From an uncultured Bacilli bacterium (GTDB lineage Bacteria; Bacillota_I; Bacilli_A; RF39; UBA660), in assembly GCA_947630865.1 (NCBI GenBank), contig CANRJE010000003.1, positions 1 through 32,564 of the forward strand: a stretch of 32,564 nucleotides of DNA. The letters run 5' to 3'. Both the position numbers and the translations under genes were made by a program. Positions within the stretch are counted from its first letter, which is position 1, and the number at the start of each line of letters is the position of its first letter. Shown piece by piece: positions 903-31,212 of the stretch. The notes below the pieces were generated by a model. It was not told the DNA's origin and ran no database searches. It was given only the letters and a program-made list of their open reading frames with translations.

Positions 903-1295
903 TTATTCATAAATATTTGAACAACCATTTGAAGAACAATAATCACCATCTTCAATTCCAACCCAACAATCAATCCAAGAAGTTAATCCATCTGGAACAT
1001 CTCCATTATTATCTTTAACCATATCTGAAACAAAAGATAATATATATTCGATTATAATAGGAACAAAAAAGATAATAACACCATATAATAATCTTTTTCC
1101 AAAAGTTTTACTTAAATCAGAACCTGATTTTTCATCATTTTTAGTCATAGCTTTAAACATATCTATAGAACCTAAAACAATTAAAATAGCTGGAACTGTA
1201 AATTGAATAATAGTTATTAATAGATGAATAATTCTTAAAAAAGGAGCCATTTCACAACACATTTGAATTGTCTCATTACAATCTAATATCAACAT
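903..1295 (-). CDS. VirB2/TrbC-like (T4SS_pilin-type) small membrane protein 1
   Basis: Two hydrophobic segments around a charged loop (FKAMTKNDEKSGSDLSKTFGKRLLYGVIIFFVPIIIEYIL), N-terminal Cys, C-terminal SWIDCW; similar to the next two ORFs. Confidence 0.6.
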   Translation of the reverse strand: MLILDCNETIQMCCEMAPFLRIIHLLITIIQFTVPAILIVLGSIDMFKAMTKNDEKSGSDLSKTFGKRLLYGVIIFFVPIIIEYILSFVSDMVKDNNGDVPDGLTSWIDCWVGIEDGDYCSSNGCSNIYE

Positions 1296-1358
1296 ATCTT
1301 TTCTCCTTTCTTTAAGTTAAAAATTGAAGCCTTTAAGCTTCAACATTTAAAGATTATT

Positions 1359-1853
1359 TTAATCAGCGCAGTAGCCTCCTGATTGAGCATCCTCACACCA
1401 ACTTCTACTTGTTGTACCCATATAAGCACTAGTTGATTTATTAATACAAACACAAGTATCAGAATTTCCCGTATTAGTATTTCCTGCTCCTCCAGTTGTT
1501 GTACTTCCTTCATAATTCCAACATTTTAAGAAAGTTGAAAATGAATTTTTAGCAGCATCACTATCATCAATTTGAACAACATTGCTTATTAAATCTAATA
1601 TTAAACTTAAAATTGGAATTAATAAGAAAATAATTACTGCATAAATTAAACGTCTAACAATTGTTTTTCTAGCCTCTTGTTGTTTCTTTTCATCACCACT
1701 AGTCATAGCTTTAAATAAATCAATTGCACATAAAATAATTAAGAAAAGTGGTACACCTATTTTAATAATATCAAATATTGTCTTTATAGTTCCTAAGACC
1801 GTTTGAATTAATGGTTGTTGACAAAGTTCATCAACACTTAATAGTATAAACAT
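1359..1853 (-). CDS. VirB2/TrbC-like (T4SS_pilin-type) small membrane protein 2
   Basis: Same architecture (IDLFKAMTSGDEKKQQEARKTIVRRLIYAVIIFLLIPILSLIL ... FLKCWNY). Start moved from 1877 to ATG at 1853 because GGAGG lies just upstream of the internal ATG. Confidence 0.6.
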   Translation of the reverse strand: MFILLSVDELCQQPLIQTVLGTIKTIFDIIKIGVPLFLIILCAIDLFKAMTSGDEKKQQEARKTIVRRLIYAVIIFLLIPILSLILDLISNVVQIDDSDAAKNSFSTFLKCWNYEGSTTTGGAGNTNTGNSDTCVCINKSTSAYMGTTSRSWCEDAQSGGYCAD

Positions 1854-1935
1854 ATAAAATCCTCCTAAAACACACACATTTATAATTATATAATACTAAA
1901 ATATTTCTAATAAATCAATACTTTTTTATTTTTTA

Positions 1936-2259
1936 TTAATTTTTTTTGCTCTCAGAAACATAATCCCAGCATTCTTTCCAACTAGCATCATAATCCATTG
2001 GAACTAATCCATTTACAATATTTAAAATAAATGGAATCAAAAATGGAATTAAATAAATAAGAACAGCATATACAATTTTCATCATAACATCTTTTCGTAA
2101 TTTCTTAATCTCGTCCTCTTTTTTGGAAACAATGATTTTAAAAATATCAATTGTACATAAGATTATTAAAACAATCGGTATTGCAAATTTGATAGCATTA
2201 AAAAGTGTCACGACAATTCCCACTATCATTTGCATGTTAGAATCACACATATCACTCAC
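1936..2259 (-). CDS. VirB2/TrbC-like (T4SS_pilin-type) small membrane protein 3
   Basis: Same architecture (IDIFKIIVSKKEDEIKKLRKDVMMKIVYAVLIYLIPFLIPFIL ... SWKECWDY). Confidence 0.6.
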   Translation of the reverse strand: MSDMCDSNMQMIVGIVVTLFNAIKFAIPIVLIILCTIDIFKIIVSKKEDEIKKLRKDVMMKIVYAVLIYLIPFLIPFILNIVNGLVPMDYDASWKECWDYVSESKKN

Positions 2260-2298: not shown

Positions 2299-3306
2299 CT
2301 ATTTGCCAAATAAACCAAATAATCCTTTTTTATTTTCTTCACCTCTTGAAGCTTCAACTAACCCAAGTTTTGATAACAAATCATTTATTACACTGTTTAT
2401 TATTCGATCATTTAAAGGTGGTAAATTAAAATATACACTTATTCCAGCCTCTTTTGCAAAAATCTCAACATCTTTATCAGACAAAAGACTATTGTTTAAA
2501 ATAACTTTTTTACCTTTTAAACTAATAAATGCCGTTCGATTTTCCATCATTAATTGATTAACTCTATATAAAGATGGATCTACTAAATATATCATATCCG
2601 TACAAGCATCAAGTTTTTTACTATCAGCTAAATCTACAATGATAATATCCATATCTGCAAAAGCTGAAAAAAATTCTCCTAATCTACTACTTGAAATTGA
2701 ATACATATTCTTATCAGCATAATAAATAAAATCTTTTTTATCTACTTCAAGTGCAACTACTTTCTTTTTATAAATTTCTATTAAATTTTTTTTCAATAAA
2801 TAAGCTAATTCTGTACTACCAGCAGCTTTTGTTACATTTGAAATACCTAAAACTATCTGCTCAGAACCACTTGCATAATTTTCACTTGTAAAATCAATAT
2901 CATTATTCTCAATTCTTGTTGTTACTTCAGATGAAGTTACATATTGTTTAACATCATCATACGTATTACTTTTATTAACAAGTTCTACTAATCCTTTTAC
3001 ATTATCAGTAAAATTATAAATATTTAAGCTCACTAAAAAAGACAAAAACTTCTTTGGTGGCGGATCATTAGGTGGTAAAAACAAAATTAATTTTTCAGTA
3101 TCAAATGTTTTGGATAATTCTCTTAAAACATCTTCTTTAGGAAATCTTTCCAAAGCTGTTGCATCAATAATTAATTTTTTGTAAAAAATAGAATTAAAAC
3201 TGTTGGCAATTGCAGAAACTTGAAATACCCCGTTTAATTCTTTCATAATTTCAATATTAGTACTAATTATTAAATCTTTATACTGGTTTGTTACTATTAT
3301 ATTCAT
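2299..3306 (-). CDS. TadZ/CpaE-like pilus assembly protein with degenerate P-loop
   Basis: N-terminal receiver-like alpha/beta region followed by a MinD-like region (QIVLGISNVTKAAGSTELAYLLKKNL ... MDIIIVDLADS). Start moved to ATG at 3306, which overlaps the upstream TGA (ATGA). Confidence 0.5.
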   Translation of the reverse strand: MNIIVTNQYKDLIISTNIEIMKELNGVFQVSAIANSFNSIFYKKLIIDATALERFPKEDVLRELSKTFDTEKLILFLPPNDPPPKKFLSFLVSLNIYNFTDNVKGLVELVNKSNTYDDVKQYVTSSEVTTRIENNDIDFTSENYASGSEQIVLGISNVTKAAGSTELAYLLKKNLIEIYKKKVVALEVDKKDFIYYADKNMYSISSSRLGEFFSAFADMDIIIVDLADSKKLDACTDMIYLVDPSLYRVNQLMMENRTAFISLKGKKVILNNSLLSDKDVEIFAKEAGISVYFNLPPLNDRIINSVINDLLSKLGLVEASRGEENKKGLFGLFGK

Positions 3307-3704
3307 AACTGACCACCACAATTTTTTGTAACCGCATCATTACCAATCATACATTCCATACCATATATAGTTTTACTTTCGTTTTTAATAGGTAAAGTAC
3401 CTGCATAACCTATAAGCGGTATCTCAAATTTAACATTAGTAACAACAGTATAAACAGCACCATTGGAATTTTTATTACAACTTATAGTTAAACTATTATT
3501 ATAATTTCTTTTTCTTAAGCTCTCACATAAAGAATTCATGTCTTGAGTTACATATCCCTCTGTTTGTTCAATAGATGTTATAACAAAGTTGCTAGCACGA
3601 TAAGTAGCCGCATAGTTCATGATTATACCAATAAAAACTATATATACAGCTAAAAAACCTAAGATAATATAAAACAAAACTGAACCACCAATGGCTTCTC
3701 TCAT
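3303..3704 (-). CDS. TadE-like/pseudopilin-like membrane protein
   Basis: Short N-terminus then one hydrophobic helix (MREAIGGSVLFYIILGFLAVYIVFIGIIMNYAATYRASNFV), soluble C-terminal part; position within the Tad-like operon. Confidence 0.5.
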   Translation of the reverse strand: MREAIGGSVLFYIILGFLAVYIVFIGIIMNYAATYRASNFVITSIEQTEGYVTQDMNSLCESLRKRNYNNSLTISCNKNSNGAVYTVVTNVKFEIPLIGYAGTLPIKNESKTIYGMECMIGNDAVTKNCGGQL

Positions 3705-3741: not shown

Positions 3742-3918
3742 TTATTCAAAATTATCTGTAACTATATAAGTATATTTATCATCTGTTGTCCATTCAGTCC
3801 ATTTTGATTGGATTGCATTGATAATAGGATCTTTAAATAACATAAATACTCCTAAAATTACACCTGCTGCTACGATAACTATTAAAGTCATACTTAATTC
3901 TCCACTTGCTTCTTTCAT
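3742..3918 (-). CDS. 58-aa Flp-pilin-like peptide (below the ORF-track cut-off)
   Basis: Reverse-strand ORF MKEASGELSMTLIVIVAAGVILGVFMLFKDPIINAIQSKWTEWTTDDKYTYIVTDNFE*; AAAGGAG SD upstream; located between TadC-like and TadE-like genes. Confidence 0.7.
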   Translation of the reverse strand: MKEASGELSMTLIVIVAAGVILGVFMLFKDPIINAIQSKWTEWTTDDKYTYIVTDNFE

Positions 3919-3996: not shown

Positions 3997-4782
3997 TTAC
4001 ATTTCCATCATCATCATCATCATAGCTAGAAATAAAACTAGCATAGTTCCACCACCTGTCACCATAAGCATAGCTAAAGTCTTTTTTTCCATTTTATCTA
4101 GACGTTTAGCATATTTTTGCTCTCTTGCTTTATTTTGTAATGATGAAACGCTTTTAGAAAAAACTAATAATTGCTCTTGTTTATTTTCCTGAGCTCCAAT
4201 ACTTAAACGATATAGTAAACGCATCATTCTTAAGGAATCACGTACAGGATATTGTTCAGCAAAGGCAAGATATGGGTCAATAGAAGAATCACCACTATCT
4301 ATTTTTTTAATCATTTCCTGAAGACCTTCTTTAAACATATCTGGAGCTGTTTCAATTGATTTTGAAATAGCAACAGGAATTGTATAATGTTGAGCTAATA
4401 TCTCAATACTTTTTAAGTAATAAGGCAAAGTTTGATCAATTTCTGTTAAATGTTTTTTATAATGACCTTTTAAACTTGAATATTGATTTTTATATAAAAC
4501 AAGTATTATCATGATTCCTATAATCAAATTTATCCAAGTAAAGTTGAATAATAAAATTGCTAAAACTACTACTACACCTATCATTATTTTTTTAATACGT
4601 GCTTCAAAAAGTACATTTGGATCAACATCTCCACCATACTTAGCTTTAACTAAAAAGTCATAATCTTTTTCCTTTAATAACATAAAGAATTTCTTATTAT
4701 CTTCATATAATTGCTTAGTATTAATAGCACCACCATAACTTAAAACAAAGATAACAATTAATACAACTATGGCAAATTCCAT
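3997..4782 (-). CDS. TadC/GspF-like inner membrane platform protein
   Basis: TM segments flanking a cytoplasmic helical domain (LPYYLKSIEILAQHYTIPVAISKSIETAPDMFKEGLQEMIKKIDSGDSSIDPYLAFAEQYP); start overlaps upstream stop (TAATG). Confidence 0.65.
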   Translation of the reverse strand: MEFAIVVLIVIFVLSYGGAINTKQLYEDNKKFFMLLKEKDYDFLVKAKYGGDVDPNVLFEARIKKIMIGVVVVLAILLFNFTWINLIIGIMIILVLYKNQYSSLKGHYKKHLTEIDQTLPYYLKSIEILAQHYTIPVAISKSIETAPDMFKEGLQEMIKKIDSGDSSIDPYLAFAEQYPVRDSLRMMRLLYRLSIGAQENKQEQLLVFSKSVSSLQNKAREQKYAKRLDKMEKKTLAMLMVTGGGTMLVLFLAMMMMMMEM

Positions 4783-5678
4783 TATTCAGCCCCCACATTC
4801 TCGTTATAATATTTTTCTCCAGACAGAAGAAAATAACTATTAAATAAAACTACAATATGCAAACCTATTTGCATTAAAATATTTGAATTAACCATATCAA
4901 TATAGGTTTCTTTACCAATTAACCATTGAACAAGCATAACCATAAGGTACAAAAGTAATCCATATTGTACAAATGATTTATGAAAAGCTTGACGATTCAT
5001 TCTATCTTGATATACTCCTTCAACAAGTTGGTCAACGTCAAGTAACATATTATCTAATACTTCAACTGTATCATGTGCACCTTCTCTAGTTACCTGTAAG
5101 AACAATTGATGCATATTTCTTGTCATATAAAAATCGTATTTACTATTCATGTAATCAATTGATTCTCCAACATCACCATTGTGATAAGCTAAATCAATCA
5201 TTACCTTAACATCGGTTTTTACTGGATCCTCAAGAACTCCAGATTCATATACACCTTCTAAGGCTTTAACAAACGATTGAGTTGTTTGAAATTCCATTAT
5301 TGTATTAGTAACATATACCTGAATTTGTTCAAAAATAAATTCACTATATAATCTTTTACAACGTAAATATGCAAGATATGGAATAAAAGCTATAACAACT
5401 ACAACATATATAAAAGATATTACCATATTGTAAAAGTATAAATATGATATAACAAAGGCTATTGCCGCAAAAAGAATTGTTTGTATTGTATATTCTTTTT
5501 TTGTATATTCAAGTCCCATTTCTTTACATTTTTCACGAATAACCTTAAATGAATAAGGTGCATATTTATCATATACATTTCCAATACTCGTTGTAACGAA
5601 TTTATATAAAGATTCACCATTACTTTTACGATATAAAACTACAAACATAACAATGAATAATATAATTATAAATTCCAT
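4782..5678 (-). CDS. TadB/GspF-like inner membrane platform protein
   Basis: N-terminal TM, central FEQIQVYVTNTIMEFQTTQSFVKALEGVYESGVLEDPVKTDVKVMIDLAYHNGDVGESI, C-terminal TMs; directly downstream of ATPase gene. Confidence 0.65.
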   Translation of the reverse strand: MEFIIILFIVMFVVLYRKSNGESLYKFVTTSIGNVYDKYAPYSFKVIREKCKEMGLEYTKKEYTIQTILFAAIAFVISYLYFYNMVISFIYVVVVIAFIPYLAYLRCKRLYSEFIFEQIQVYVTNTIMEFQTTQSFVKALEGVYESGVLEDPVKTDVKVMIDLAYHNGDVGESIDYMNSKYDFYMTRNMHQLFLQVTREGAHDTVEVLDNMLLDVDQLVEGVYQDRMNRQAFHKSFVQYGLLLYLMVMLVQWLIGKETYIDMVNSNILMQIGLHIVVLFNSYFLLSGEKYYNENVGAE

Positions 5679-5690
5679 TTTATCACCTCG

Positions 5691-7166
5691 TTATAAAAAT
5701 TCAATTTGATTATTAGTTGTTTCTCTATTAGCACCATTAGTTGGAACTGAATTAGGTGCTCCTACATTTATATTTGGTACAACTGGAGTTACAACTGGTG
5801 TAATGTTTAAAGCATTAATACTATTATCTAAAGTATCTGTATTATTTATATTATTGTTACTAACAACATTAGGAACATTAATACTAGGAGTTGAAGGTTG
5901 CGTTTCTGGAATATTATTTGCAGAAGGCACTTTTGTTTCTAAAGAACTAGTCTGATTAGATACTGTTTCAATATTATTTTCTAAACTTTCAATATTATTA
6001 GTACCAGATTTGTTAGTATCTGCAAAAGGATCAGGTGCTACCTGTCTCATATTTTGAATTTCCTTTTTAGTCAAATCAACACCTTGAGCTTCAAGATAAT
6101 CTATTAAATATTTACTTGGTGGATTAATAACTGTTGTACCATCAATATTTTTACGATAAATTGTATTAGATTCTGGTTCGTTATTATCATTTACAAAAAA
6201 CTCTGTAACTTCACATACTTCTCTTAAAAATTTTCCACCTTTTTCATATCTTGCTCTAACATGAACACCAAGTTGAACATAACGATAAATAGTTGCCATA
6301 AACTGATTTACATCGATATTACTTTCAAGCAAACTATATAAACGATATGGAATACTAGCTGCTTTATCAGCATGGATTGTTGATAAAATATTATGTCCTG
6401 ATGAAATAGAATTACGAACAGCAGTAACAGCTTCAGCCGATCTTACTTCGGATAGTAAAATCCATTTAGGATTCTGTCTCATACAGCCAACTAATACATC
6501 ACTATATGATGCAATATTATTGGTTTTCATAGAAACAATATCACGCTCTGGAAAAATAGCATCCAAATGCAACTCCAAAGTATCCTCAATAGTTATTATT
6601 TTTTCATTTTCTTTAGTATGGCTTGCTAAATATTTAACTAACTCTGTTTTACCACTACCAGTTTCACCACTTACAATGATATTACAATGTCCTCTTACAC
6701 ATTCAATTAGAAAATCATGAATATCACTTGTAATATATTTTTCTTCAATAATTTTTTCTTTTTTTAATCGAATTTTTGCTGGCGTTTTACGAAAAACTGC
6801 AGCAATTCCATTTCTAGCAATTGAATCATGAATAAAATTCATACGTAGTTCTGATGATTCACTATCCAAAAGTGGACTAGCCATATTGAAAGTTTTTCCC
6901 ATAATATTGGCACATTGAAAAGCAATTTTTTCAATAAGTTCATTATTAACACCAGTATTTTCAACCCGATATACACCTTTATCAAGTGATTTTAACCAAA
7001 CTTGCCCATTATTACTATAAGAAATATCGGTGATGTTATCATCATCTAAGTAAGGTTTCAAAGCACCAAAATCAATATTAGAAAATAAACTAGCATTAAT
7101 TTCAGTATTAGTTTTGTTAGGATCACTATTAGGATTTAATTCATAGGCATTTATACTTGGATTCAT
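5691..7166 (-). CDS. CpaF/TadA (VirB11-like) secretion ATPase
   Basis: Walker A SGETGSGKT, ITIEDTLEL, RQNPKWILLSEVRSAEAV, SSGHNILSTIHAD: the GspE/VirB11 superfamily motif series; Asn/Thr/Val-rich C-terminal tail. Confidence 0.92.
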   Translation of the reverse strand: MNPSINAYELNPNSDPNKTNTEINASLFSNIDFGALKPYLDDDNITDISYSNNGQVWLKSLDKGVYRVENTGVNNELIEKIAFQCANIMGKTFNMASPLLDSESSELRMNFIHDSIARNGIAAVFRKTPAKIRLKKEKIIEEKYITSDIHDFLIECVRGHCNIIVSGETGSGKTELVKYLASHTKENEKIITIEDTLELHLDAIFPERDIVSMKTNNIASYSDVLVGCMRQNPKWILLSEVRSAEAVTAVRNSISSGHNILSTIHADKAASIPYRLYSLLESNIDVNQFMATIYRYVQLGVHVRARYEKGGKFLREVCEVTEFFVNDNNEPESNTIYRKNIDGTTVINPPSKYLIDYLEAQGVDLTKKEIQNMRQVAPDPFADTNKSGTNNIESLENNIETVSNQTSSLETKVPSANNIPETQPSTPSINVPNVVSNNNINNTDTLDNSINALNITPVVTPVVPNINVGAPNSVPTNGANRETTNNQIEFL

Positions 7167-7171
7167 AATAC

Positions 7172-8026
7172 CTACTCCGTTTTTTGATCAGTATTTGTAT
7201 TATCGCCATTAGTATCAGTATTAGTATCTACATCTTCTTCAGTATCAGTTGCAACAATATCCTCTAATAATGCTGCTTGAGAATTAATATATTCTTTAAT
7301 TGTCTCACTTGTAACAGCAATAATATTCTCTTCATCACCATCAACTTTTAAAGATGCATTAGTTGGCACAAGAATTATCTCTGCATTTTTAATATATTCA
7401 GCTGTTCTAAGCAATAAGTGAATTTCTCTTGTAACACCAAATATTATTTGGCTAGGTGTTCTTTCTTCACTTGTTGTTTCAAAAACTGGTCTACCACCTG
7501 AATCTTTAACAGCTAAAATTTTAACATTTTCAACAAGTTTGCCAATCATAAGTCGGCCATCATCGCCAATACCTTTAAAGTAAACATCAACATAATTTCC
7601 TGGATACATTGAATTACCATATGTAGATGTTACGTTAACTGAAAAGTTATAAGCAACTTGTCCATCTTCCATTTCTAATAGAAATGAATCTGGTAATTCT
7701 TCTTCTTTAACTACTTGTTCAGCATAAAATAAACTACCGCTTGGAATAGATGAATTAACATTAGTATACATACCTAAAATTTGTGTATTTTCGTTTGTTA
7801 ACACATTACCTTTCATTGAAGATTGAGTTATATCAACATATCCAATCATATCCTTAGTAATTTTTGTTCTTGGGGCTATTGTTTGAACAGCATATGGTAC
7901 TCTAATTGGACTAGTTGCTTGATTTACTTTCCAATTATAGAAAAAATATAGTACCAAAACAATTAAAATTGCACCTATAAATGTAACAGTATTTTTGTTT
8001 GATAAAATTTGTTTTAATTTTTTCAT
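7172..8026 (-). CDS. CpaB/RcpC-like SAF-domain pilus assembly protein
   Basis: N-terminal TM then VPYAVQTIAPRTKITKDMIGYVDITQ...IPSGSLFYAEQVV (SAF-like), Asp/Thr-rich tail. Confidence 0.75.
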   Translation of the reverse strand: MKKLKQILSNKNTVTFIGAILIVLVLYFFYNWKVNQATSPIRVPYAVQTIAPRTKITKDMIGYVDITQSSMKGNVLTNENTQILGMYTNVNSSIPSGSLFYAEQVVKEEELPDSFLLEMEDGQVAYNFSVNVTSTYGNSMYPGNYVDVYFKGIGDDGRLMIGKLVENVKILAVKDSGGRPVFETTSEERTPSQIIFGVTREIHLLLRTAEYIKNAEIILVPTNASLKVDGDEENIIAVTSETIKEYINSQAALLEDIVATDTEEDVDTNTDTNGDNTNTDQKTE

Positions 8027-8046: not shown

Positions 8047-8625
8047 TTACTTATCAATTTTTTCTTCAAAAATTGCATCTACTTGATTTCTAATATCAAA
8101 GTCTCCAGCTTCAAATTCTGCAACATCAGTATGTTCTGAACCTAGAGTGTTAAAGGTATCTATTCGAATACTAACTTTAGGTGGATATTCAATCACTTCC
8201 TGAACAGTAACAGCATAATTTTTACTATTATTGATATTATTAGAAAATCTTCTTAAAAAACTTTCTGTAAAAACATCAGCATTAATTTTTATTTCTCCAA
8301 TTAACAAATCACATTTTGCATATGTTTTTAAAATATTAGAGTTATCATCAATATTATGTTTTAAAATAATATCATAATCGTTTTTACTATCAAAAACCAT
8401 TCTATTACTACTATCTGTTGTATATGCCCCTGGTTTAGCACATAAATAAAATCCCGCTCGATATGAAGCTTTATCAATCGAATCATACATAGCAGCTTCA
8501 ACAGTATTTCTAACTAAAGTATAGTCCTGTTGATTAGTTGTCGTGATATTTCCAAACAAATTAATTAGGACTAAACCGAGAATACCCATTGCAAAGATGA
8601 AAACTGCCCACATTGCTACTTTCAA
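8047..8625 (-). CDS. TadE-like pseudopilin/membrane protein
   Basis: N-terminal TM (MKVAMWAVFIFAMGILGLVLINLFG) and extracellular domain; position in operon. Confidence 0.45.
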   Translation of the reverse strand: MKVAMWAVFIFAMGILGLVLINLFGNITTTNQQDYTLVRNTVEAAMYDSIDKASYRAGFYLCAKPGAYTTDSSNRMVFDSKNDYDIILKHNIDDNSNILKTYAKCDLLIGEIKINADVFTESFLRRFSNNINNSKNYAVTVQEVIEYPPKVSIRIDTFNTLGSEHTDVAEFEAGDFDIRNQVDAIFEEKIDK

Positions 8626-8709: not shown

Positions 8710-11310
8710 TTATCTATTAAACTTTGCTGTATTAAACCATCCTTTTTGATCTGATTCTCCATAATCTGTTTGATTTCTTGTAAATAAGCATATATATTTA
8801 TTATCAGTTGTAAATTCGCATTTACTTCCTAAATAACTATCAGCACCTTTATTTTTAGTATCTTTTCTTATATTTTCAATATTCTGTTTTCCCATTTCAT
8901 AGTAATAATCATAATCATATTTTGGAATATTTTTAGAATCTGTTTCCCATAAATCAGATGTTATTATATTAACAAAACTATATCTATCATTTAAATAATT
9001 TTTACCAATTTGTCTTTCAGGAGTTAAATCTTTAATAAATGGATCAGATAAAGAAATCTGTCTATATATTGGCTTACTAATAGTTTGAGTAAAAGAACAA
9101 CTATTTTCGTTTTTACCTTCTAATTTAAAATCTAAATTTCCTTTATAACCAGCATTTAAGATATTAATATCTATATAACCACTAGTAGCATTATATTTTG
9201 TATAAAACATATTTCCTCCACCTAACTGAGATTTAGTATCAGAACAACTTACAGAATCTCCTGTTTTCATTGATAAACAAGAATTAGGTAAAGTCATTTT
9301 CTTTGATAATGATAACGTACATGTTTCTGAACTAGTAACAGATTTGTTATTTACAAGTGTCTTTTTAGATATACCATAACAAGATTTAGGAGCACTTATT
9401 TCTCCACTATTTTCTAGATTTACTTTTTCTGTTTTGTTATCATTATAAGTTACTGTCATTGTCGCTTCCTGCTTTTCAAAAGAAAGCTTATAGTTATCTA
9501 AATTACTATTTGATAGCTTATTATAGTCATCAACAATCGAACTCATATTTTCAAGTTTTAATTGGTAACCTACAGCATCTTTTTCAAAAAGCTCTCTTTC
9601 AGAAGCATCATAGTTACTATTTTTAGAATTAGCTATTGCTCTTTCATAATCTTTTTGATAACTCTTATAATCTTCATTAAATTTATCAGTATCAAAACTA
9701 TATGTACATTTTATATTAGTACTTAAATCAAGATTAACAGAAAAACCTATTCCATAAGTATCAAACTCTTTTTCTCCACTTTTTAAATCTTCATATCTAA
9801 GATTATTTTTGTTATATCTATTTAAAGTTAAATTAACTTTATAACCTGAAACCATTTTTTTAGCATCATTTAAATAACCTTCACTACATCTTATTGCATA
9901 ATATTGTGTATCACTTTCATCACTCAAACTACCATTTTTAGTTAATCCAGTAATTTCAGATGAACCAGTACAAGATGGAATATTAAGATTTGGCTGTACC
10001 CAATAAACTTCAGGATTATCTATAACTGTTATAGTCTTAGGATTACCATCAGCATCAGTATATTTAAATTCAAAGTTCTCATTAGTCTTATGCCAACCTG
10101 TATTTGCTAACTCGTCAATAGTGATTTCAAAACTGTCTGTTTTTATACCGTTTTTAGTTATCTGACCAACATTAAAATGTTTAAATCTAACTCTTTCTTC
10201 TAAAAAGAAACTACTTCCAATTCTATCATTAAGCTCAGACATTACTTTTGAACCACCGCTTTCTTCAATAATTTGATTAGCAATTTGTTCAAAAATTTCT
10301 TCATATTTACTTTTATCTGGAGTTTCATAATAATTTTTTGGATATGTAAAATCTTTACATTGTGTATACTTACGACTATATGTATGCTTAGAATTCCACC
10401 AAGTATGAGTAGAACATTTACCACTCGAAGTATAAGAACTACCAAGCATAAATCTTAACATATTATTTATATTACATTGCTTTTTACTTAATTTAAAACA
10501 ATTTGCACTATTACCAGGATTAATAGCTTCTTGTGACTCGGAATCTTCACTTGATTTATAACGAAGAACAAAGAAATTAGCTCCAATTTTTCTTAAATTA
10601 TCAGCATTTGTCATAGCTGTTCCTACATTAGTATGATCAGGCCACCAATAGTATCCATCGCCTAATAAAACAACATATTTTTTTCCTTCTTTAGAACTTA
10701 ATTCATTATAAACACCTTCAAAAGCTTTATCAACAAATGATTTATGTCTATTTTTACCTGAAAAAAATCCACTATATGTTAAGAAATCTGTTTTATCAAA
10801 ATTTTTATTTTCTAACTTTTGCCTTTGATATGCATTAGTTCCAAACTGCCAAAGAGAAACATAAAAATTGGAGCCTCCATCAACTGGAACTAATGTTTTA
10901 GCAAGTTTTTTAGCAGCCGCAATAGCTTCTGTTTCTTGTCCTTTAATTGTCTGAGACATATCTAAGATAACTGATACATAAGCTGGTTCTGAAACCTTTC
11001 TTTGCTCAACATCACCTTTTACTTCAAATTCTACTTCATATGTTCCTAAATCCTCTGTTTTTCTAACATACTTTATAATTTGAATATCATTAGGATTACC
11101 ATAAATCATTCGAACTTCAACTACCACACCATTTTTTTCAACAGTTTCACATCTAACATTATCTTTATCACTAATATCTAAAGGACACCTTAAGTCTCCT
11201 ATCACAGGACTATTTGTAGCAGCATCAGTATCTGTATAAGCTAAAAATAATATAGAAATAACGATTAATCCTAAAAATACACTAAATGATTTTCCAATTT
11301 TATTTTTCAT
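8710..11310 (-). CDS. Secreted, Cys-rich von Willebrand factor A domain protein (copy 1)
   Basis: Signal peptide; MIDAS-like DMSQT in YVSVILDMSQTIKG; extensive similarity to 12042-14618. Start moved from 11370 to ATG at 11310 (GAGGTG SD). Confidence 0.8.
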   Translation of the reverse strand: MKNKIGKSFSVFLGLIVISILFLAYTDTDAATNSPVIGDLRCPLDISDKDNVRCETVEKNGVVVEVRMIYGNPNDIQIIKYVRKTEDLGTYEVEFEVKGDVEQRKVSEPAYVSVILDMSQTIKGQETEAIAAAKKLAKTLVPVDGGSNFYVSLWQFGTNAYQRQKLENKNFDKTDFLTYSGFFSGKNRHKSFVDKAFEGVYNELSSKEGKKYVVLLGDGYYWWPDHTNVGTAMTNADNLRKIGANFFVLRYKSSEDSESQEAINPGNSANCFKLSKKQCNINNMLRFMLGSSYTSSGKCSTHTWWNSKHTYSRKYTQCKDFTYPKNYYETPDKSKYEEIFEQIANQIIEESGGSKVMSELNDRIGSSFFLEERVRFKHFNVGQITKNGIKTDSFEITIDELANTGWHKTNENFEFKYTDADGNPKTITVIDNPEVYWVQPNLNIPSCTGSSEITGLTKNGSLSDESDTQYYAIRCSEGYLNDAKKMVSGYKVNLTLNRYNKNNLRYEDLKSGEKEFDTYGIGFSVNLDLSTNIKCTYSFDTDKFNEDYKSYQKDYERAIANSKNSNYDASERELFEKDAVGYQLKLENMSSIVDDYNKLSNSNLDNYKLSFEKQEATMTVTYNDNKTEKVNLENSGEISAPKSCYGISKKTLVNNKSVTSSETCTLSLSKKMTLPNSCLSMKTGDSVSCSDTKSQLGGGNMFYTKYNATSGYIDINILNAGYKGNLDFKLEGKNENSCSFTQTISKPIYRQISLSDPFIKDLTPERQIGKNYLNDRYSFVNIITSDLWETDSKNIPKYDYDYYYEMGKQNIENIRKDTKNKGADSYLGSKCEFTTDNKYICLFTRNQTDYGESDQKGWFNTAKFNR

Positions 11311-11320
11311 CAAACACCTC

Positions 11321-11998
11321 TTATAAATCATCTTTTTTATTTCGTTTATTTTTATTATTTTTAATAACAATTATAACTATACTTACAATAGCTAAAATTC
11401 CAATACCGCTTATAATGTATATAAATTTATCACTTTTTGTAATCTTATTTACAATATTATCTTCTTTTAAATAATCATCATACAATTTATCAATTTCAGA
11501 AAAAGTTATATCGGAAGTGTCCAAAAACTCTTTACAATACGTAAAATTTTGATGTTCTAAACATTTATTTTTATTATAGTAATAATAATCATTATAATAA
11601 GGTAATTCAATCGTTATAGTTTTTAATAAATTATCAGTACATTTATTAGTTGTATATGAATAAATTGAAAACTTTAATTTACTACCTTCAGATAAAGATT
11701 CCAAACTATCAGTCTTATAATTCAAAGTTTCACTTTCACCACTATTTTCATATACTATTTTTAAGTCTTTATCAAAATTTATAATATCTATACCATATAT
11801 TAAAGAAACTGATTTATATACATCTTCATCTATTTTTTCTTCATTAGTTGACATCTCATATCTTGTTTTAAGTTGAACATTATTAGCAAGTTCCTTTAAA
11901 CGATCCATTTCTGAATCAGTACAATTTTCTATAGCTGATACATCTAAGTTACTAAATATCAGAAATGTTGTAAGGATACTAAAAATAATTTTTTTCAT
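11321..11998 (-). CDS. Signal-peptide protein with C-terminal TM and basic tail ending DDL (copy 1)
   Basis: Signal peptide MKKIIFSILTTFLIFSNLDVSA; C-terminal TM FIYIISGIGILAIVSIVIIVI then KNNKNKRNKKDDL; paralog of 14630-15301. Confidence 0.75.
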   Translation of the reverse strand: MKKIIFSILTTFLIFSNLDVSAIENCTDSEMDRLKELANNVQLKTRYEMSTNEEKIDEDVYKSVSLIYGIDIINFDKDLKIVYENSGESETLNYKTDSLESLSEGSKLKFSIYSYTTNKCTDNLLKTITIELPYYNDYYYYNKNKCLEHQNFTYCKEFLDTSDITFSEIDKLYDDYLKEDNIVNKITKSDKFIYIISGIGILAIVSIVIIVIKNNKNKRNKKDDL

Positions 11999-12041
11999 TA
12001 TCTCACCTATTTTCTTAAAATAATTTATCTATAACTTTAAT

Positions 12042-14618
12042 TTAACGATTAACTCTTATTTTACTAAACCAACCATTTGATGTTCCAAGACCATTTTCTG
12101 ATGAATCTCGTACAAACAAACATACATATTTAGGAATTTCATCACTATTATTAGATGTAAATTTACAATTTCTTCCTAAATAACTAGTCTTACCTTCTTC
12201 ACTACTATCGGCCCTTATTTTAGCAACATTTTCTTTTCCAAATTCATAGTAATACTCATAATCATGCTTTAAATTTCCAGATGTATCCGTATCCCATAAA
12301 TCAGCACTTATAACTTTAACAAAATTATATTTATCATTTAAATAGTTTCTACCAATTAATCTTGAAGGATTTAATTCTTTAATAAATGGATCACTAACAG
12401 AAATTTGTCTATACATACTAGTATTAGAATCAAAAGTTGCTTTATTTTGCGTAAATTGACAGTCATCTCCTTTTAAAGTAAACTTCAAATTATTTCTAAT
12501 ACCAGCATCTTCTAATATAACTTGAATTTTTCCAGATTTTACAGTAAATGGAGGATAGAAAATATTTCCAGAATTTAATTGATTATTTTCGTTATTGCAA
12601 TCTTCTTGTTCTCCATTCTGCATTGATAAACAACTAGCTGGAAAAATAAGCGTTTTGGACATCGATAAAGTTGCTACTTTTTTCGTAATAAGATTATTAC
12701 TTCCTACAATTTTGGCAATTTCTGAATTTCCAATAGCAGTAGTTGTTAATGATGGATTAGGTAAACTATATTTAAAGTTAGTACTTTGCAAATTTATTTC
12801 TTTAGTTTTATTATTATTGTAAGATACAATAACTCTAGCATTTTGTTTCTCAAATGTATCTCTATATGTTGCCAAATCTTCATTCAAAAGTGAAAGATAG
12901 TTTTTTAAACTTTGCTTCATATCTTCAAGTTCTTGTTCGTAGATAATAATTTGATCTTTTGTATATTTTTCTTGGTCTTCAATACTCATATCAGAATCAG
13001 GATCATAATCTTTATTTGCTATCATCGTTTTTAAGTCATTTATATACTCAGAAAAACTATCCCAATCCTCTTTATAGGTTTTAAAATCAAAAGTATAGGT
13101 ACATCTTACATTAGTACTAATATTAGCTTCTACCATAAAACCTAAATTATTGGTTTCAAATCCTTTTTTTTCACTAGCTGTTAAATATTCATATTGTTTT
13201 TTGTCCATATTGTATTTTTTCATATTTAAACTAACTTTATAACCAGATGCAGATGATCTATTATTATTTAAATATCCTTCCACACAATTCTTTTTCCAAT
13301 ATTTAAATTCATCACTATCAGAAGTTCTTGATGACATTTCATTGTCACCAATGCAACCAGAAAAATCTAATCTTGGTTGTATCCAATAAACTTCAGGACT
13401 TTTTGAAATATTTATCTTTTTTTGAACAGCATTGCCCTCTTCATTTTTATAAGTATATGACAAGGTAACGTTCTCATTGGTTTCATGCCAACCATCTTTA
13501 GCATAATCATCAATTGTAATACTGAAAGGAGATGTCTTTAGCCCATCTTTAGTTATCTCTCCTATATCAAAGTTTTGATATCTTCCAGCATCTTCATCTT
13601 CAAGATAAAAACTTGAACCAATCTTATCTCTTAATTCACTTGTAACAATTTGTCCATTTGTATTTTCTTTTACATCTTTAGCAAATCCCTCTAATAAACT
13701 TGTCCAATCGCTGCCTTCTTTAAAATTCTTTTTATACATTTCGCAATTTCTTCCATTATTACCACACATAAAGAAACTCATCATTTTTTGATTGCAAACC
13801 CATTTTTTTTCTTTATAACAACCAGCATTGTTGGCTTGAGCTCTCCAATTATTATTTTCACCATCTTCTCTTGATGCATATCTTATAACATAAAAAGTTA
13901 CACCTAATTCATTTCTTAATTTATTAGCATAAGTTTTAGCATCTCCAACTCCTGTATCTCTTGTATACCAATAATATCCATCACCAATTAACACAACAAA
14001 TTTTTTACCAGTAACATTTTTAAGTTCATCATAAGCAGCTTTAAAAGCCTTATCAACAAAAGACTTTTTACCTAACCCATTTGTATTATAGCCAAAAAAT
14101 GTAACATTTGAAAAGTCTTTATTATCTAAGCTTCTTCTTTTTTTGTTATTTTGAGCAAATTGATGAAGTGATATATAATAATTTCCGCCTGAACCATTAG
14201 GAATCAAAGTAGAAGCGAATTTTTTTGATGCTTCAATAACTTTACCTACATTACCACTAATCGTATAAGACATATCTATAAGAACACTTACATAACCTTT
14301 CTCTGGAACTTCAACTTGGTCAATATCACCTTTTACTTCAAAATATACACTATATTTACCTAACTCATTAGTTTTAGAAACATGTTTTACTATTTGGACA
14401 TCGCCTTTTTTCTTTACTTCACCATAAGTAATTACAACTTCCGTTACAACTCCATTACTTTTTACTTCTCTACAACTTACATTAGGTTCTTGGTCTATTC
14501 CCTCAACAACAGGACAACGCATATCTCCTTTTTGAGGTTCAGCCGCCTCAGTATCGATCGCTAATCCAAATATAAATAGTATAAATAAACTTAAAAATAA
14601 TAATTTTTTCTTCCCCAT
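12042..14618 (-). CDS. Secreted, Cys-rich von Willebrand factor A domain protein (copy 2)
   Basis: Signal peptide; MIDAS-like DMSYT in YVSVLIDMSYTISG; conserved C-terminus (SDPFIKELNPSRLIGRNYLNDKYNFVKVISADLWDTD...). Confidence 0.8.
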   Translation of the reverse strand: MGKKKLLFLSLFILFIFGLAIDTEAAEPQKGDMRCPVVEGIDQEPNVSCREVKSNGVVTEVVITYGEVKKKGDVQIVKHVSKTNELGKYSVYFEVKGDIDQVEVPEKGYVSVLIDMSYTISGNVGKVIEASKKFASTLIPNGSGGNYYISLHQFAQNNKKRRSLDNKDFSNVTFFGYNTNGLGKKSFVDKAFKAAYDELKNVTGKKFVVLIGDGYYWYTRDTGVGDAKTYANKLRNELGVTFYVIRYASREDGENNNWRAQANNAGCYKEKKWVCNQKMMSFFMCGNNGRNCEMYKKNFKEGSDWTSLLEGFAKDVKENTNGQIVTSELRDKIGSSFYLEDEDAGRYQNFDIGEITKDGLKTSPFSITIDDYAKDGWHETNENVTLSYTYKNEEGNAVQKKINISKSPEVYWIQPRLDFSGCIGDNEMSSRTSDSDEFKYWKKNCVEGYLNNNRSSASGYKVSLNMKKYNMDKKQYEYLTASEKKGFETNNLGFMVEANISTNVRCTYTFDFKTYKEDWDSFSEYINDLKTMIANKDYDPDSDMSIEDQEKYTKDQIIIYEQELEDMKQSLKNYLSLLNEDLATYRDTFEKQNARVIVSYNNNKTKEINLQSTNFKYSLPNPSLTTTAIGNSEIAKIVGSNNLITKKVATLSMSKTLIFPASCLSMQNGEQEDCNNENNQLNSGNIFYPPFTVKSGKIQVILEDAGIRNNLKFTLKGDDCQFTQNKATFDSNTSMYRQISVSDPFIKELNPSRLIGRNYLNDKYNFVKVISADLWDTDTSGNLKHDYEYYYEFGKENVAKIRADSSEEGKTSYLGRNCKFTSNNSDEIPKYVCLFVRDSSENGLGTSNGWFSKIRVNR

Positions 14619-14629
14619 AACAACACCTC

Positions 14630-15301
14630 TTATAAATCATCAGATTTTCTACGCTTTTTAACAACAATTATTGTAATAATTGCAATAACAACAAGAAATA
14701 ATGCACTTCCAGCAATTATATAAATAGTAGTTTTATCTTTTTTTTCTTCTTTTTTTACTTCTGTAGGTTTGGTATATTCATCATACAATTTATTAAATTC
14801 TTCCTCTGATAAATCCGATGTATCTAAAAACTCTTTACAATATTTAAAATTAGGTGCTGCTTCACATTTTTCTTTATTAAAATAATAATAGTCATTGTAT
14901 ATTGGTAAATCAACAGTTACAGTTCTAAGCAGCTTATTTGTACAATAATCAGCTGTATAGGAATAAATATTAAATTTTATCTTACTGCCCTCAGCCAAAT
15001 CTTCAATCTTGTTAGTTCTATAATATAATAATTCTTCACTGCCTTCATCATCGTAAGAAATTTTCAAATCCTTTGAAAAATTAATAATATCAATACTATA
15101 AATTAACGAAATAGAATCATATACCTCATTATCAATTTTCTCACTATTAGTAGAAATTTTATAATTTGTTTTAAATTGAACATTTTTAGCTAATTCTTTT
15201 AAGCTTGTTAATTCAGAACTATCACATGCTGTTAACGCAAATACATCAGAACCAACAAAAAACAAAAAAACAAAAGTTAAAAAGTAAATTATTTTTCTCA
15301 T
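14630..15301 (-). CDS. Signal-peptide protein with C-terminal TM and basic tail ending DDL (copy 2)
   Basis: Signal peptide, C-terminal TM (IYIIAGSALFLVVIAIITIIVV) and KKRRKSDDL tail; shared YNDYYY.NK.KC......YCKEFLDTSD with 11321-11998. Confidence 0.75.
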   Translation of the reverse strand: MRKIIYFLTFVFLFFVGSDVFALTACDSSELTSLKELAKNVQFKTNYKISTNSEKIDNEVYDSISLIYSIDIINFSKDLKISYDDEGSEELLYYRTNKIEDLAEGSKIKFNIYSYTADYCTNKLLRTVTVDLPIYNDYYYFNKEKCEAAPNFKYCKEFLDTSDLSEEEFNKLYDEYTKPTEVKKEEKKDKTTIYIIAGSALFLVVIAIITIIVVKKRRKSDDL

Positions 15302-15325: not shown

Positions 15326-15354
15326 ATTATAACAAATTTATTTTTTATTTACAA
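15326..15354 (-). promoter_or_regulatory. Predicted promoter of the pilus-like operon (TTGTAA-N17-TATAAT)
   Basis: Reverse strand -35 at 15349-15354 and -10 at 15326-15331; ATG at 15301 with AGGAGA SD. Confidence 0.6.
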
Positions 15355-15376: not shown

Positions 15377-15392
15377 AACTTTTGAGGTGAAT

Positions 15393-15791
15393 ATGAAAAA
15401 ATTTTTATTAGTTATAACCATTTTGTTTTTAGCAACTGCTTGTAATGGTTCTTTAAAACAACTTAATTTAAAAAGTTTAGAAACAAAACTTGATAACAAA
15501 GAAACATTTGTTTTATATCTAACAGATTTAAAAGATGAAGGTAAAACTTTAGAAAAAACACTTGTCAAAGTATCAAAAGAAAGTGATATTGAATTTTTCT
15601 ATTTGAATACTGATAAGTTAAATACTAATGATAAAGATAAATTAAAAACATATTTTACTTATGATGATACTAATTTTATTGCATTTGTTAAAGAAGGAAA
15701 AGAGGCAACTGTTTTATCAAGAGTCACCGATGCTTTTATAAGTGAAAAAAAATTAAAAGAAGAACTAAAAACACAAGGTTATTTAAAATAA
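15393..15791 (+). CDS. Small lipoprotein, possibly thioredoxin-like fold without CXXC
   Basis: Lipobox MKKFLLVITILFLATAC; FVLYLTD..., IEFFYLNTDKL, FIAFVKEGKE pattern resembles a thioredoxin-like beta-alpha layout (weak inference). Start moved to ATG at 15393 because the GTG at 15387 lies in the SD. Confidence 0.6.
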   Translation: MKKFLLVITILFLATACNGSLKQLNLKSLETKLDNKETFVLYLTDLKDEGKTLEKTLVKVSKESDIEFFYLNTDKLNTNDKDKLKTYFTYDDTNFIAFVKEGKEATVLSRVTDAFISEKKLKEELKTQGYLK

Positions 15792-26828: not shown

Positions 26829-26855
26829 AAAAAAAGATTTTTTTAGAAATCTTTA
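26829..26855 (-). terminator. Terminator at end of phosphonate operon
   Basis: Reverse strand AAAGATTT-CTAAAA-AAATCTTTTTTTT. Confidence 0.65.
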
Positions 26856-28630
26856 ATTTTTTCATATATTTCTCTTATTTCTTCTTTAGAAAATATAACT
26901 GGACTATTTTTTAGTCTTTCCTCGTTAACACTTTCAAGAAGTATAGAGATATCTTTATCTTTTATTTCTACTTTGTCTAATTTCATATAAGAAATTATTT
27001 CACGAACTTTTAAAATACTCTCTTCAATAGTTTTAACTTTAAAGATATTTGCAATTTTAAGTAGTTTAGTTTCTAATTCTTTATCCTTTTTTGAATACTT
27101 TAATAATTTCTCCCAAACAGGTATTATAGTTAAAGCAACAGCATAACCATGTGGAATATTATAAAGTTTTGTTAATTTATAACTCATAGCATGTGGAGCT
27201 GTTGTCCTAGTTATGTTAATTGCACGACCACTTAAATTAGCTGCTGTTAAAATATCTTTATATGTTTTTTCATCTTCATTCAAATAATTTTTATAATTAT
27301 CTTCTATTAATTCTAATGACTTTTTAGCATATTCTATACTTTTTATATTTGAACCCTTTGACCATAATGACTCAATTGCTTGACAAATAGCATCTAAAAG
27401 CGTTACTTTCTTTTGATATAAAGGTAAAGTTTTTAAAATATTTTTATCTAAAATAATTTTATTAGGATAAATACTTCCATGATCAACTGAGAATTTTTCA
27501 TTTTTATAATATATTACCGCGAAAGAAGTAGATTCACTTCCTGTACCTGCTGTTGTTGGAATTGCTATTAAAGGTATATTTTGATACTTATATTTTTTAT
27601 TTAAAAAATCAAGAGCATTATCTAATCCTGAAAATAATTTTATACATTTAGCTGTATCAATAGCACTTCCACCACCAATTGCAACAACTATATTATATTT
27701 ATCTTTTTTAAATTGTTGAACACCAAGTTTTACATCTTCATAAGTTGGATTAGAACTAAAATCAGTAAATATTTTCTTATCATAATCTTTAAAACTTAAA
27801 TCTACTTCTGAACTTATTCTTTTACTACATACAAAAAATATTTTTTCATTTTTTTTTAATACCTTATGTAATGTTTTTACATAATCATCTGATTCATATA
27901 CTTCTTGTTCTCTAAAATCATAATATTTAATCTCTTCTCGAACTCTTTTATAATCATCTTCATTATCTATTTCATCAATATAATCATCACTATAGGAAAT
28001 ACCAATGATATTTAATTTATCACTTATTTCATTTAAAGCATTTTCAGCATAAACATTTGTAATTCCTTTTTCTACAAATTCATGAACTTTTTCTTTCCAC
28101 AAGTTTAAATCTTTTTTACTTAATTTATAAAGTGGTTGAAAAGCATAACAATCTGAATCAAATATATTAATAGATACTTCTTTTAATTTATTATCTTTAA
28201 ATCTTCCTTTGAAATCTTTTTCAGGTAAAGCTTTCTTTTCATTGTAAAGACAAATAGAAGGTCTTTCATCTTCTAGCATTTTTATAACTAAATTACGATT
28301 AAAAACTAAATCACCATGTAAAAGTAAAAAATCATCATCTAAATAGTCTCTTGCATTATCCATTGAAACAATATAATTTGTTTTATCATATATTGGATTA
28401 GGAACAAACGTAAAATGTAAATATGGATATTTACTTGCAATTTCATGGAGTTGTTCAGCAAAAGGTCCGGTTGTTATAACAAAATCTTTAATACCACAAC
28501 TACTAAGTATTCTAATTTGTCTTTCAAATATCGTTTCTGAATTATATAATTCAACCATACATTTTGGTCTAAATTCTGTCATTTTACCCATTCTGATACC
28601 ACGACCAGAGTTAAATATTAATGCTTTCAT
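26843..28630 (-). CDS. Fusion: N-terminal nucleotidyltransferase (LicC/PntC-like) + C-terminal iron-containing alcohol dehydrogenase (phosphonoacetaldehyde reductase-like)
   Basis: N-terminal ALIFNSGRGIRMGKMTEFRPKCMVEL; C-terminal GGGSAIDTAK, PTTAGTGSESTSF, DAICQAIESLWS, APHAMSYKLTKLYNIPHGYAVAL (Fe-ADH). Confidence 0.88.
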   Translation of the reverse strand: MKALIFNSGRGIRMGKMTEFRPKCMVELYNSETIFERQIRILSSCGIKDFVITTGPFAEQLHEIASKYPYLHFTFVPNPIYDKTNYIVSMDNARDYLDDDFLLLHGDLVFNRNLVIKMLEDERPSICLYNEKKALPEKDFKGRFKDNKLKEVSINIFDSDCYAFQPLYKLSKKDLNLWKEKVHEFVEKGITNVYAENALNEISDKLNIIGISYSDDYIDEIDNEDDYKRVREEIKYYDFREQEVYESDDYVKTLHKVLKKNEKIFFVCSKRISSEVDLSFKDYDKKIFTDFSSNPTYEDVKLGVQQFKKDKYNIVVAIGGGSAIDTAKCIKLFSGLDNALDFLNKKYKYQNIPLIAIPTTAGTGSESTSFAVIYYKNEKFSVDHGSIYPNKIILDKNILKTLPLYQKKVTLLDAICQAIESLWSKGSNIKSIEYAKKSLELIEDNYKNYLNEDEKTYKDILTAANLSGRAINITRTTAPHAMSYKLTKLYNIPHGYAVALTIIPVWEKLLKYSKKDKELETKLLKIANIFKVKTIEESILKVREIISYMKLDKVEIKDKDISILLESVNEERLKNSPVIFSKEEIREIYEKIKDF

Positions 28631-28636
28631 TCATTA

Positions 28637-29749
28637 TCACCTCAATTTATTTTGAAATTGTTCTTTATTTTCAATAGGTGTTGTTGTTGGTCTTCCTAAA
28701 TCAGCTCTTGATAATTGGTTAGTATTTATAATTAAAGCAGTTAAAGGAGTGTTCTTTAATGTTAAGGTCATTTTTTCTACTTCCTCTTTGGTACTTGCTT
28801 CTAAAACTTCTTTAAAGCCAAAAGACTTTAATATTCCTTTTATATCAATTCTTGATGCAATTGTAGGTTGAGCACCAACTGATTCATGACATCGATTGTT
28901 AATTAATATGTATTTTAAATTAGATTTGGCTTTAGAAATAGCAACAGGCACTCCTCCCATATGCATAATAAAAGCCCCATCACCATCAATACAAAAAATA
29001 TTTTTCTTGGTGTTTAAACTAATTCCAAGAGCAAGAGATAAAGCATGTCCCATTGAACCAACAGTTAAAAAATCATTACCATGACCCATATTATATTTTT
29101 CTCTTAATTCAAAAATTTCTCTTGAGGCTTTACCTGTTGTTGATACTATAAAATCATTAACATCTAATGTTTTTAAAATAGAATCTAATGCTTCTTCACG
29201 AGTTAAATTTGGATTATTTTCTTTAGTTATTCCAACTTCATACTGAGAAAATGTTCCTTTTTTAACTACTAAAGCAATACTTTTTCCTGTTTCTTCTAAA
29301 TATTTTTTACATTCCTTAATCTCTTTTTCATAATCTTCATCTAAAATAAAATATTTAACTCCTAAAGTATCTAAAAGTGGTAAAGTTAATTTGCCTTGTT
29401 TAATATGTTGAGGTTCATCTTTTATCCCTGGCTCTCCACGATAACCAATAATTAATAAAGATGGAATTTTATAAACTTCTTCATCACATAAAGATAAAAG
29501 TGGATTAACAATATTTCCTAATCCAGAATTTTGCATATAAACAACTCCAAATTTCCCAGTTGCTATATTATAACCAGATGAAATTGCTATGGCATTACCT
29601 TCATTAGCTGCAATAATATTGTTATCATCATCTGAATTATCTTTAATAGTTAAACATAATTCTTTTAATAAAGAATCAGGAACTCCTGTAAAAAAAGAAA
29701 AGTCATTTTCTTTTAAAACATCATAAAACTTTTGAGGATTAATCATCAT
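28637..29749 (-). CDS. aepY: Phosphonopyruvate decarboxylase
   Basis: SFFTGVPDSLLKELC; ThDP motif CIDGDGAFIMHMGGVPVAI...ILINNRCHESVGAQPT; next to PEP mutase. Confidence 0.94.
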   Translation of the reverse strand: MMINPQKFYDVLKENDFSFFTGVPDSLLKELCLTIKDNSDDDNNIIAANEGNAIAISSGYNIATGKFGVVYMQNSGLGNIVNPLLSLCDEEVYKIPSLLIIGYRGEPGIKDEPQHIKQGKLTLPLLDTLGVKYFILDEDYEKEIKECKKYLEETGKSIALVVKKGTFSQYEVGITKENNPNLTREEALDSILKTLDVNDFIVSTTGKASREIFELREKYNMGHGNDFLTVGSMGHALSLALGISLNTKKNIFCIDGDGAFIMHMGGVPVAISKAKSNLKYILINNRCHESVGAQPTIASRIDIKGILKSFGFKEVLEASTKEEVEKMTLTLKNTPLTALIINTNQLSRADLGRPTTTPIENKEQFQNKLR

Positions 29750-31174: not shown

Positions 31175-31212
31175 AAAAACATAAAGTTTTAAATAGAAAC
31201 TCTATGTTTTTT
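31175..31212. terminator. Bidirectional terminator between SOR gene and cotE-like gene
   Basis: AAAAAACATAAAGTTTT...AAACTCTATGTTTTTT inverted repeat with A/T tracts between converging genes. Confidence 0.7.

Follow-up and report, generated by a model that had tools for sequence, protein, structure and literature searches.

The window analysed here, the whole stretch of 32,564 nucleotides at positions 1 to 32,564 of contig CANRJE010000003.1 (assembly GCA_947630865.1) from an uncultured Bacilli bacterium (GTDB lineage RF39; UBA660), contains two tandem gene pairs that head a Tad-like pilus operon. The pairs and the genes for a DUF5411 protein, CpaB, a CpaF ATPase and a Flp-type pilin are all on the same strand. 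Each pair encodes a small membrane protein partner (MP) and a large secreted protein with a von Willebrand factor A domain (vWA protein), and the copies are numbered by their pair. A literature search found no papers on this pilus in RF39. The pairs, and the parts of vWA copy 1, are as follows:

14630..15301 (-), MP copy 1, 223 aa
12042..14618 (-), copy 1 of the vWA adhesin-like protein, 858 aa
13359..14540 (-), SpaC-like head of copy 1, residues ~27-420, which includes the vWA core
13854-14303 (-), vWA core of copy 1, residues 106-255, with D115/S117/T119/S186/D213
12045..12413 (-), copy 1 residues 736-858, the C-terminal module, with the family-wide signature YRQISVSDPF...R.IG.NY
11321..11998 (-), MP copy 2, 225 aa
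8710..11310 (-), copy 2 of the vWA adhesin-like protein, 866 aa, with Pfam VWA spanning residues 114-275

Duplication of the gene pair as a unit

The MP and vWA genes are separated by 11 nt in pair 1 and 10 nt in pair 2, and the two pairs lie 43 nt apart. For vWA copy 2 the ATG at 11310 is the preferred start; a TTG-started open reading frame (ORF) extends to 11370. The vWA copies share 45% identity over ~860 aligned amino acids and the MP copies 56% over ~224, and the copy-versus-copy matches in a search of the own genome (E=1.5e-123 and 6.7e-72) are well beyond chance. An NCBIfam scan returned nothing useful for either pair.

For the gene trees we used 17 genomes of the genus, 16 of which have homologues. 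The window vWA copies are sisters (support 100/99), and so are the window MP copies (92/95). As both members are sisters in their own trees, the pair was duplicated as one unit in the lineage of the window. A sequence-only reading of this DNA had proposed a tandem duplication of the two-gene module, and the coordinates, gene order, 10-11 nt spacing, identities and sister trees all agree with it. That reading had also held that a pseudogenized pair in close relatives would count against it; the MP-linked copies are free of internal stops in 16/17 genus genomes.

Genome G124 shows the sister pattern in the MP and vWA trees alike. Other species of the genus often have two or three distinct copies, which partly trace to older splits, and some members combine a vWA head with a non-vWA head. 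Tandem pairs of an MP and a large protein also occur outside the genus, in G057 (large proteins 38% identical) and G102 (43%), and in eight sampled genomes the gap between MPs could hold a large gene. The second pair of G125 (L070 9200-15474) retains adjacency with the order reversed, the vWA gene preceding the MP.

Architecture and kinship of the paired proteins

Pfam VWA (PF00092) scores above its curated cut-off in both copies (E 1.6e-5 and 9.3e-6), and the vWA fold of copy 1, for which the earlier reading had asked for a structure prediction, was predicted well by AlphaFold, with a predicted local distance difference test (pLDDT) score of ~90 over residues 105-255. The copy 1 model comprises a signal helix (residues 3-18), beta strands, the vWA core, long helices at 512-591 and the C-terminal module. 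The positions resembling a metal ion-dependent adhesion site (MIDAS) are D115-x-S117-x-T119, S186 and D213; D115, S117, S186 and GDG are each conserved in at least 80% of 23 genus homologues, two of which are without a vWA domain. The MIDAS-like residues (DxSxT...S...D), of which DxSxT had been noticed from the sequence, are conserved through the genus, though with Ser at the usual Thr. Both vWA proteins have a Sec-type N-terminus, judged by hydrophobicity and the model with the signal type assigned by eye, and copy 1 has no C-terminal transmembrane (TM) segment. We found no LPxTG motif in 32 homologues from the genus, some of them partial.

Few parts of the protein are less conserved than the Cys-rich loop that follows the core (residues 256-320), where the earlier reading had seen the copies differ. 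The loop has 31% identity between the copies and 27 gap columns, and residues 601-660 are similarly low (28%). The halves of the vWA core are 45-57% identical and the C-terminal modules 54%. The per-region ratio of nonsynonymous to synonymous substitution rates (dN/dS), suggested there as a check on diversification, could be computed, but with synonymous sites near saturation: fourfold third-position identity between the copies is 0.55 vs 0.44 expected by chance. No region was clearly above a dN/dS of 1 (~0.9 in the most divergent loop, <1 overall), and the comparison gave no sign of diversifying selection between the copies. That they diversified for different ligands, as the earlier reading suggested, is unproven.

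Across residues 70-348 the genus vWA profile matches SpaC (E 1e-14), and a Foldseek search with the copy 1 model placed SpaC (5e-15), RrgA, PitA and Mfa5, all pilus adhesins, in the top eight. Whole-model TM-scores were low, so the Foldseek match is local. These matches uphold the earlier proposal of pilus-tip-adhesin kinship, and the adhesin reading of the vWA proteins, drawn from sequence and structure models, is well supported.

The matches to the head and to the rest of the protein come from different sources. Long vWA adhesins that sister species encode separately match window residues ~6-420 (BLASTP, E to 2e-31), with one alignment extending to 463/491. The large proteins without vWA that occupy the same operon position, here called the slot, in G120 and G126 align with window residues ~424-859 (BLASTP, E to 8e-46). 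The junction of head and body lies just past a PEVYW motif. In these alignments the vWA protein looks chimeric, with a SpaC-type head joined to a slot body. One of the sister-species vWA adhesins (L155 11412-14255) has an LPxTG-like sorting signal at its end and belongs to a sortase-pilus locus in the same genus (L155 1539-14255), which encodes a backbone pilin, LPxTG proteins, sortases and the vWA adhesin. Judging from sequence, this locus is a possible source of the vWA head. In the head tree, the three sortase-type heads group together (95) beside some slot heads, so that transfer may have run either way and more than once.

The MP model (pLDDT 88.7) has a signal-peptide helix, a seven-strand FN3/Ig-like beta-sandwich ectodomain and a C-terminal TM segment. 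MP copy 1 has a conserved Cys in the ectodomain and a short basic tail after the TM segment. Sequence searches found no solved relatives of the MP, and FN3-like matches in the fold search were weak (best E 0.012). In a mirror-tree comparison, the true MP-vWA partners ranked first of 96 within-genome re-pairings (r = 0.574), which gives modest support to cognate partnering of each MP with its own vWA copy.

The pilus operon and its slot across the family

The following features lie downstream of the pairs or beside the operon:

8047..8625 (-), DUF5411 protein, a TadE/F-like minor pilin judging from a hydrophobic segment at its N-terminus
7172..8026 (-), RcpC/CpaB-like protein, RcpC E 2.6e-6, 1 bit under the Pfam cut-off
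5691..7166 (-), CpaF-type secretion ATPase, T2SSE E 5.6e-27
4782..5678 (-), membrane protein, TadB-like judging from its position, length and synteny, without Pfam match
3997..4782 (-), membrane protein, TadC-like on the same grounds, without Pfam match
3742..3918 (-), Flp-type major pilin candidate by motif, 58 aa, MKEASGELSMTLIVIVAAG..., no Pfam hit
3303..3704 (-), candidate TadE-like minor pilin, judging from its position and a hydrophobic segment at the N-terminus
2299..3321 (-), CpaE-like protein, assigned from synteny, without Pfam match
15326..15354 (-), promoter-like TTGTAA-17-TATAAT with TG extension, a consensus match upstream of MP copy 1
15387..15791 (+), divergent lipoprotein, thioredoxin-like, adjacent to the operon

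The arrangement of an MP, a large secreted protein and DUF5411 recurs across the bacterial family of the window, and this order was seen in most of forty further loci. Among 117 family genomes, 76 have both MP and DUF5411, 20 only DUF5411, 3 only the MP and 18 neither (Fisher p 3.5e-8); the two genes are within 7 kb of each other in 66 genomes. DUF5411 above the cut-off is confined to this family among 395 genomes of the class. The pilus setting that the sequence-only reading had assumed is thus seen as linkage to a Tad-like operon both in the window and family-wide. TadB-, TadC- and TadE-like genes have the expected size and order in most loci with no Pfam hit, the Flp-type pilin motif recurs at the equivalent place in other genera, and a prepilin peptidase (PF01478) is encoded elsewhere in 17/17 genus genomes.

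The large proteins of the slot usually have a common C-terminal module and variable heads. A C-terminal model built from slot proteins of other genera matches 32/46 further large ORFs at E <= 1e-3, and the modules of the genus and of other genera align with each other (hhalign E 1.7e-10, 120 columns). Window copy 1 has YRQISVSDPFIKELNPSRLIGRNY in the place of the signature [YF]R-x-[IV]-x-L-x-[ND]-P-F-P...G-x-N-W. None of 27 scanned slot proteins of other genera has a Pfam VWA match, and the VWA matches of other genera, compared by eye, sit on different contigs from the strong MP matches of the same genomes. Among the genera examined, the vWA head in the slot is limited to the genus of the window. 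An N-terminal [YF]C[IVLM]D motif is frequent in large proteins of other genera (L096, L097, L099, L105, L098, L110, L114, L124). Thioester-domain heads, considered for these genera from the conserved YCxD motif, are a weak lead, as the best matches were non-significant (an ancillary pilus protein in the PDB, E 0.47; Pfam TED, E 2.2).

Variation in the slot extends to DUF5411. The large proteins of G005 and G039 have shrunk to 526 and 428 aa, and DUF5411 in these genomes bears a large variable extension; G007, G012 and G097 encode a fusion of DUF5411 with an M15 peptidase. Taken together, the shrunken large proteins with extended DUF5411 and the M15 fusions support a joint tip complex. Individual loci encode DUF5411 with long Cys-rich or Ig-like extensions and an adjoining shortened large protein (L101 4295-7816, L102 7640-9991), or DUF5411 fused to a D-Ala-D-Ala peptidase-like M15 domain (L103 8942-10285, L105 8946-10649, L106 7051-8577), with SH3 in L105. 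The window's genus, together with G057, G008, G060 and G085, has a DUF5411 insert between model positions ~57 and 59 that is absent from most genera.

After the CpaE-like gene, window 903-2259 (-) encodes a trio of small membrane proteins whose T4SS_pilin-like matches are weak, and such a trio recurs at the operon end in other loci. Promoter-like matches are barely commoner in the region than in shuffles, and a terminator scan found nothing between the genes. The thioredoxin-like lipoprotein also flanks the operon elsewhere (L090 9253, L092 14862, L093 4890, L106 2212). Its CxxC is kept in other genera and lost in the genus of the window, where the lipoprotein may therefore be a non-catalytic chaperone. 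At window 26843-30626 (-) we identified, by eye, phosphonate-pathway-like genes for a nucleotidyltransferase/dehydrogenase fusion, a phosphonopyruvate decarboxylase-like protein and a PEP mutase-like protein (EDKTGLKQNS). A CotE outer spore coat protein (E 1.9e-49) is encoded at window 31211-31753 (-); the genome assembly is ~1.35 Mb.

Proposed exchangeable tip adhesins and the alternatives

The window proteins have a homologous vWA head in common with the tip adhesins SpaC of Lacticaseibacillus rhamnosus and RrgA of S. pneumoniae. They differ in the lack of LPxTG, the absence of a sortase gene from the window, an unrelated body and C-terminus, and a Tad-like operon. With the TadG/CpaL minor pilins they share a vWA domain with MIDAS-like residues and the Tad operon. 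TadG and CpaL carry an N-terminal pilin module (PMC12607857), whereas the window proteins begin with a signal helix at 3-18 followed by beta strands; with no N-terminal pilin helix, membership in this group is ruled out. Moreover, the vWA domain in the copy 1 model is not split by a CpaL-type beta insert (PMC12607857). The TadG-type analogy of the sequence-only reading is therefore not supported, and the layout is nearer to that of PilY1.

PilY1 has a type I signal peptide, a variable N-terminus and a conserved C-terminus (PMC7541494), and some PilY1/PilC proteins carry vWA in the variable N-terminus (PMC7541494, PMC13190605). The likeness to these proteins of type IVa pili lies in the Sec-type signal, the variable head, the conserved C-terminus and the several paralogues with different heads (PMC7541494, PMC13190605). 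In contrast to PilY1, the C-terminal module of the window proteins is ~123 aa of other sequence, the setting is Tad-like and there is a dedicated single-pass membrane partner; Pfam found no PilY1 beta-propeller in the window proteins. By analogy, the vWA protein would be most like a PilY1 with a SpaC head in its working. The Kil pilus of Myxococcus xanthus has several alternative tip complexes, Tip1-Tip4, on one pilus (PMC12075869); those tips are minor pilins from separate clusters, whereas the window has a tandem duplicate with a membrane partner.

We favor, with a probability of about 0.6, the reading that the two pairs are lineage-specific duplicates of an adhesin-plus-partner module that serves a Tad-like (type IVc) pilus in a family of uncultured gut Bacilli and supplies exchangeable tip (or surface) adhesins. 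Each large protein is a chimera of an N-terminal SpaC/RrgA-type vWA head (~420 residues, with a MIDAS-like metal site), a Cys-rich body and the C-terminal module that recurs in the slot across the family. The computations establish the duplication as a unit, this chimera, the fold, the operon linkage and the conserved slot. As for tip location, docking, ligand binding and the role of the MP, we infer that the large protein is exported by Sec and is held or chaperoned at the membrane by the FN3-like ectodomain of its cognate single-pass MP. The C-terminal module would then dock it on minor pilins (DUF5411/TadE), which would place it on or near the pilus tip, where it may bind its ligand through the vWA/MIDAS head. 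The two diverged copies would be two interchangeable tips.

Several observations weigh against this reading. The canonical MIDAS Thr is replaced by a conserved Ser (S186), with DxSxT and D present. TadB, TadC, TadE and CpaE were assigned by synteny and not by Pfam, and the mirror-tree is small (19 pairs) with a thin margin (0.574 vs 0.565 for the next pairing). The C-terminal module is of low confidence in AlphaFold when modelled alone (pLDDT ~45-55); going by the model, its folding may depend on a partner. As the large protein lacks a pilin segment, it could remain on the MP at the cell surface.

This last point leads to the alternative that the vWA protein is a surface adhesin tethered to the MP, off the pilus and merely co-operonic and co-regulated with it. 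The TM anchor and Ig-like ectodomain of the MP, the lack of a pilin module or own anchor in the vWA protein, and the distance of some MP-vWA pairs from pilus genes (e.g., G125:C13, L104) fit such a tether. We consider it unlikely, though still plausible, given the strong family-wide linkage to DUF5411/CpaB and the combination in G005 and G039 of a small large protein with a DUF5411 that has a big variable domain, as if both formed one tip complex. It is distinctly unlikely that the duplication provides dosage only, with functionally equal copies. Both copies are intact with matching layout and overall dN/dS is <1, but they are only 45% identical with a strongly diverged Cys loop, and many genus members hold two or three distinct copies, some with a vWA and a non-vWA head.

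Since vWA domains at Tad and type IVa tips are tied to surface sensing and priming (PMC12607857, PMC7541494), the vWA protein might instead be a mechanosensor or pilus-priming factor like CpaL/PilY1 and not a ligand-binding adhesin. We give little credence to this, as the closest solved relatives of the head are dedicated adhesins; a sensing role would also be compatible with adhesion. The accessible text of one report predicts that an operon of CpaF, PilC/GspF and DUF5411 in gut Clostridia-named genomes is secretion-related (PMC9523054). CpaF and DUF5411 are in common with the window, and the vWA pair and the slot are not described in that text (PMC9523054). By extension, the operon here could be a secretion system with the large proteins as its effectors or components. 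This is very improbable in view of the Flp-type pilin and prepilin peptidase, the Sec-type signal helices on the large proteins, the adhesin fold of those in the window, and the lack of any toxin or enzyme domain in a Pfam search of the large proteins.

Returning to the exchangeable adhesins, a broader proposal, which we put slightly short of even odds, is that of a family-wide, undescribed tip-loading system of Tad-like pili in gut Bacilli. It would combine a single-pass partner with a large secreted tip protein of fixed docking C-terminus and exchangeable adhesive head. Some heads would have come from sortase pili by capture, and a duplicated pair would supply one pilus with alternative cognate tips.

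Pilus tips determine the attachment targets of bacteria. If our reading is true, the duplicated pair offers a natural system for the direct study of partner specificity and ligand choice, and a recurring, largely unannotated tip slot has been identified in uncultured gut Bacilli that form a large family. Adhesive heads would also move between sortase pili and Tad-like pili, two classes without relation to each other, which suggests that bacteria can exchange heads between unrelated pili.

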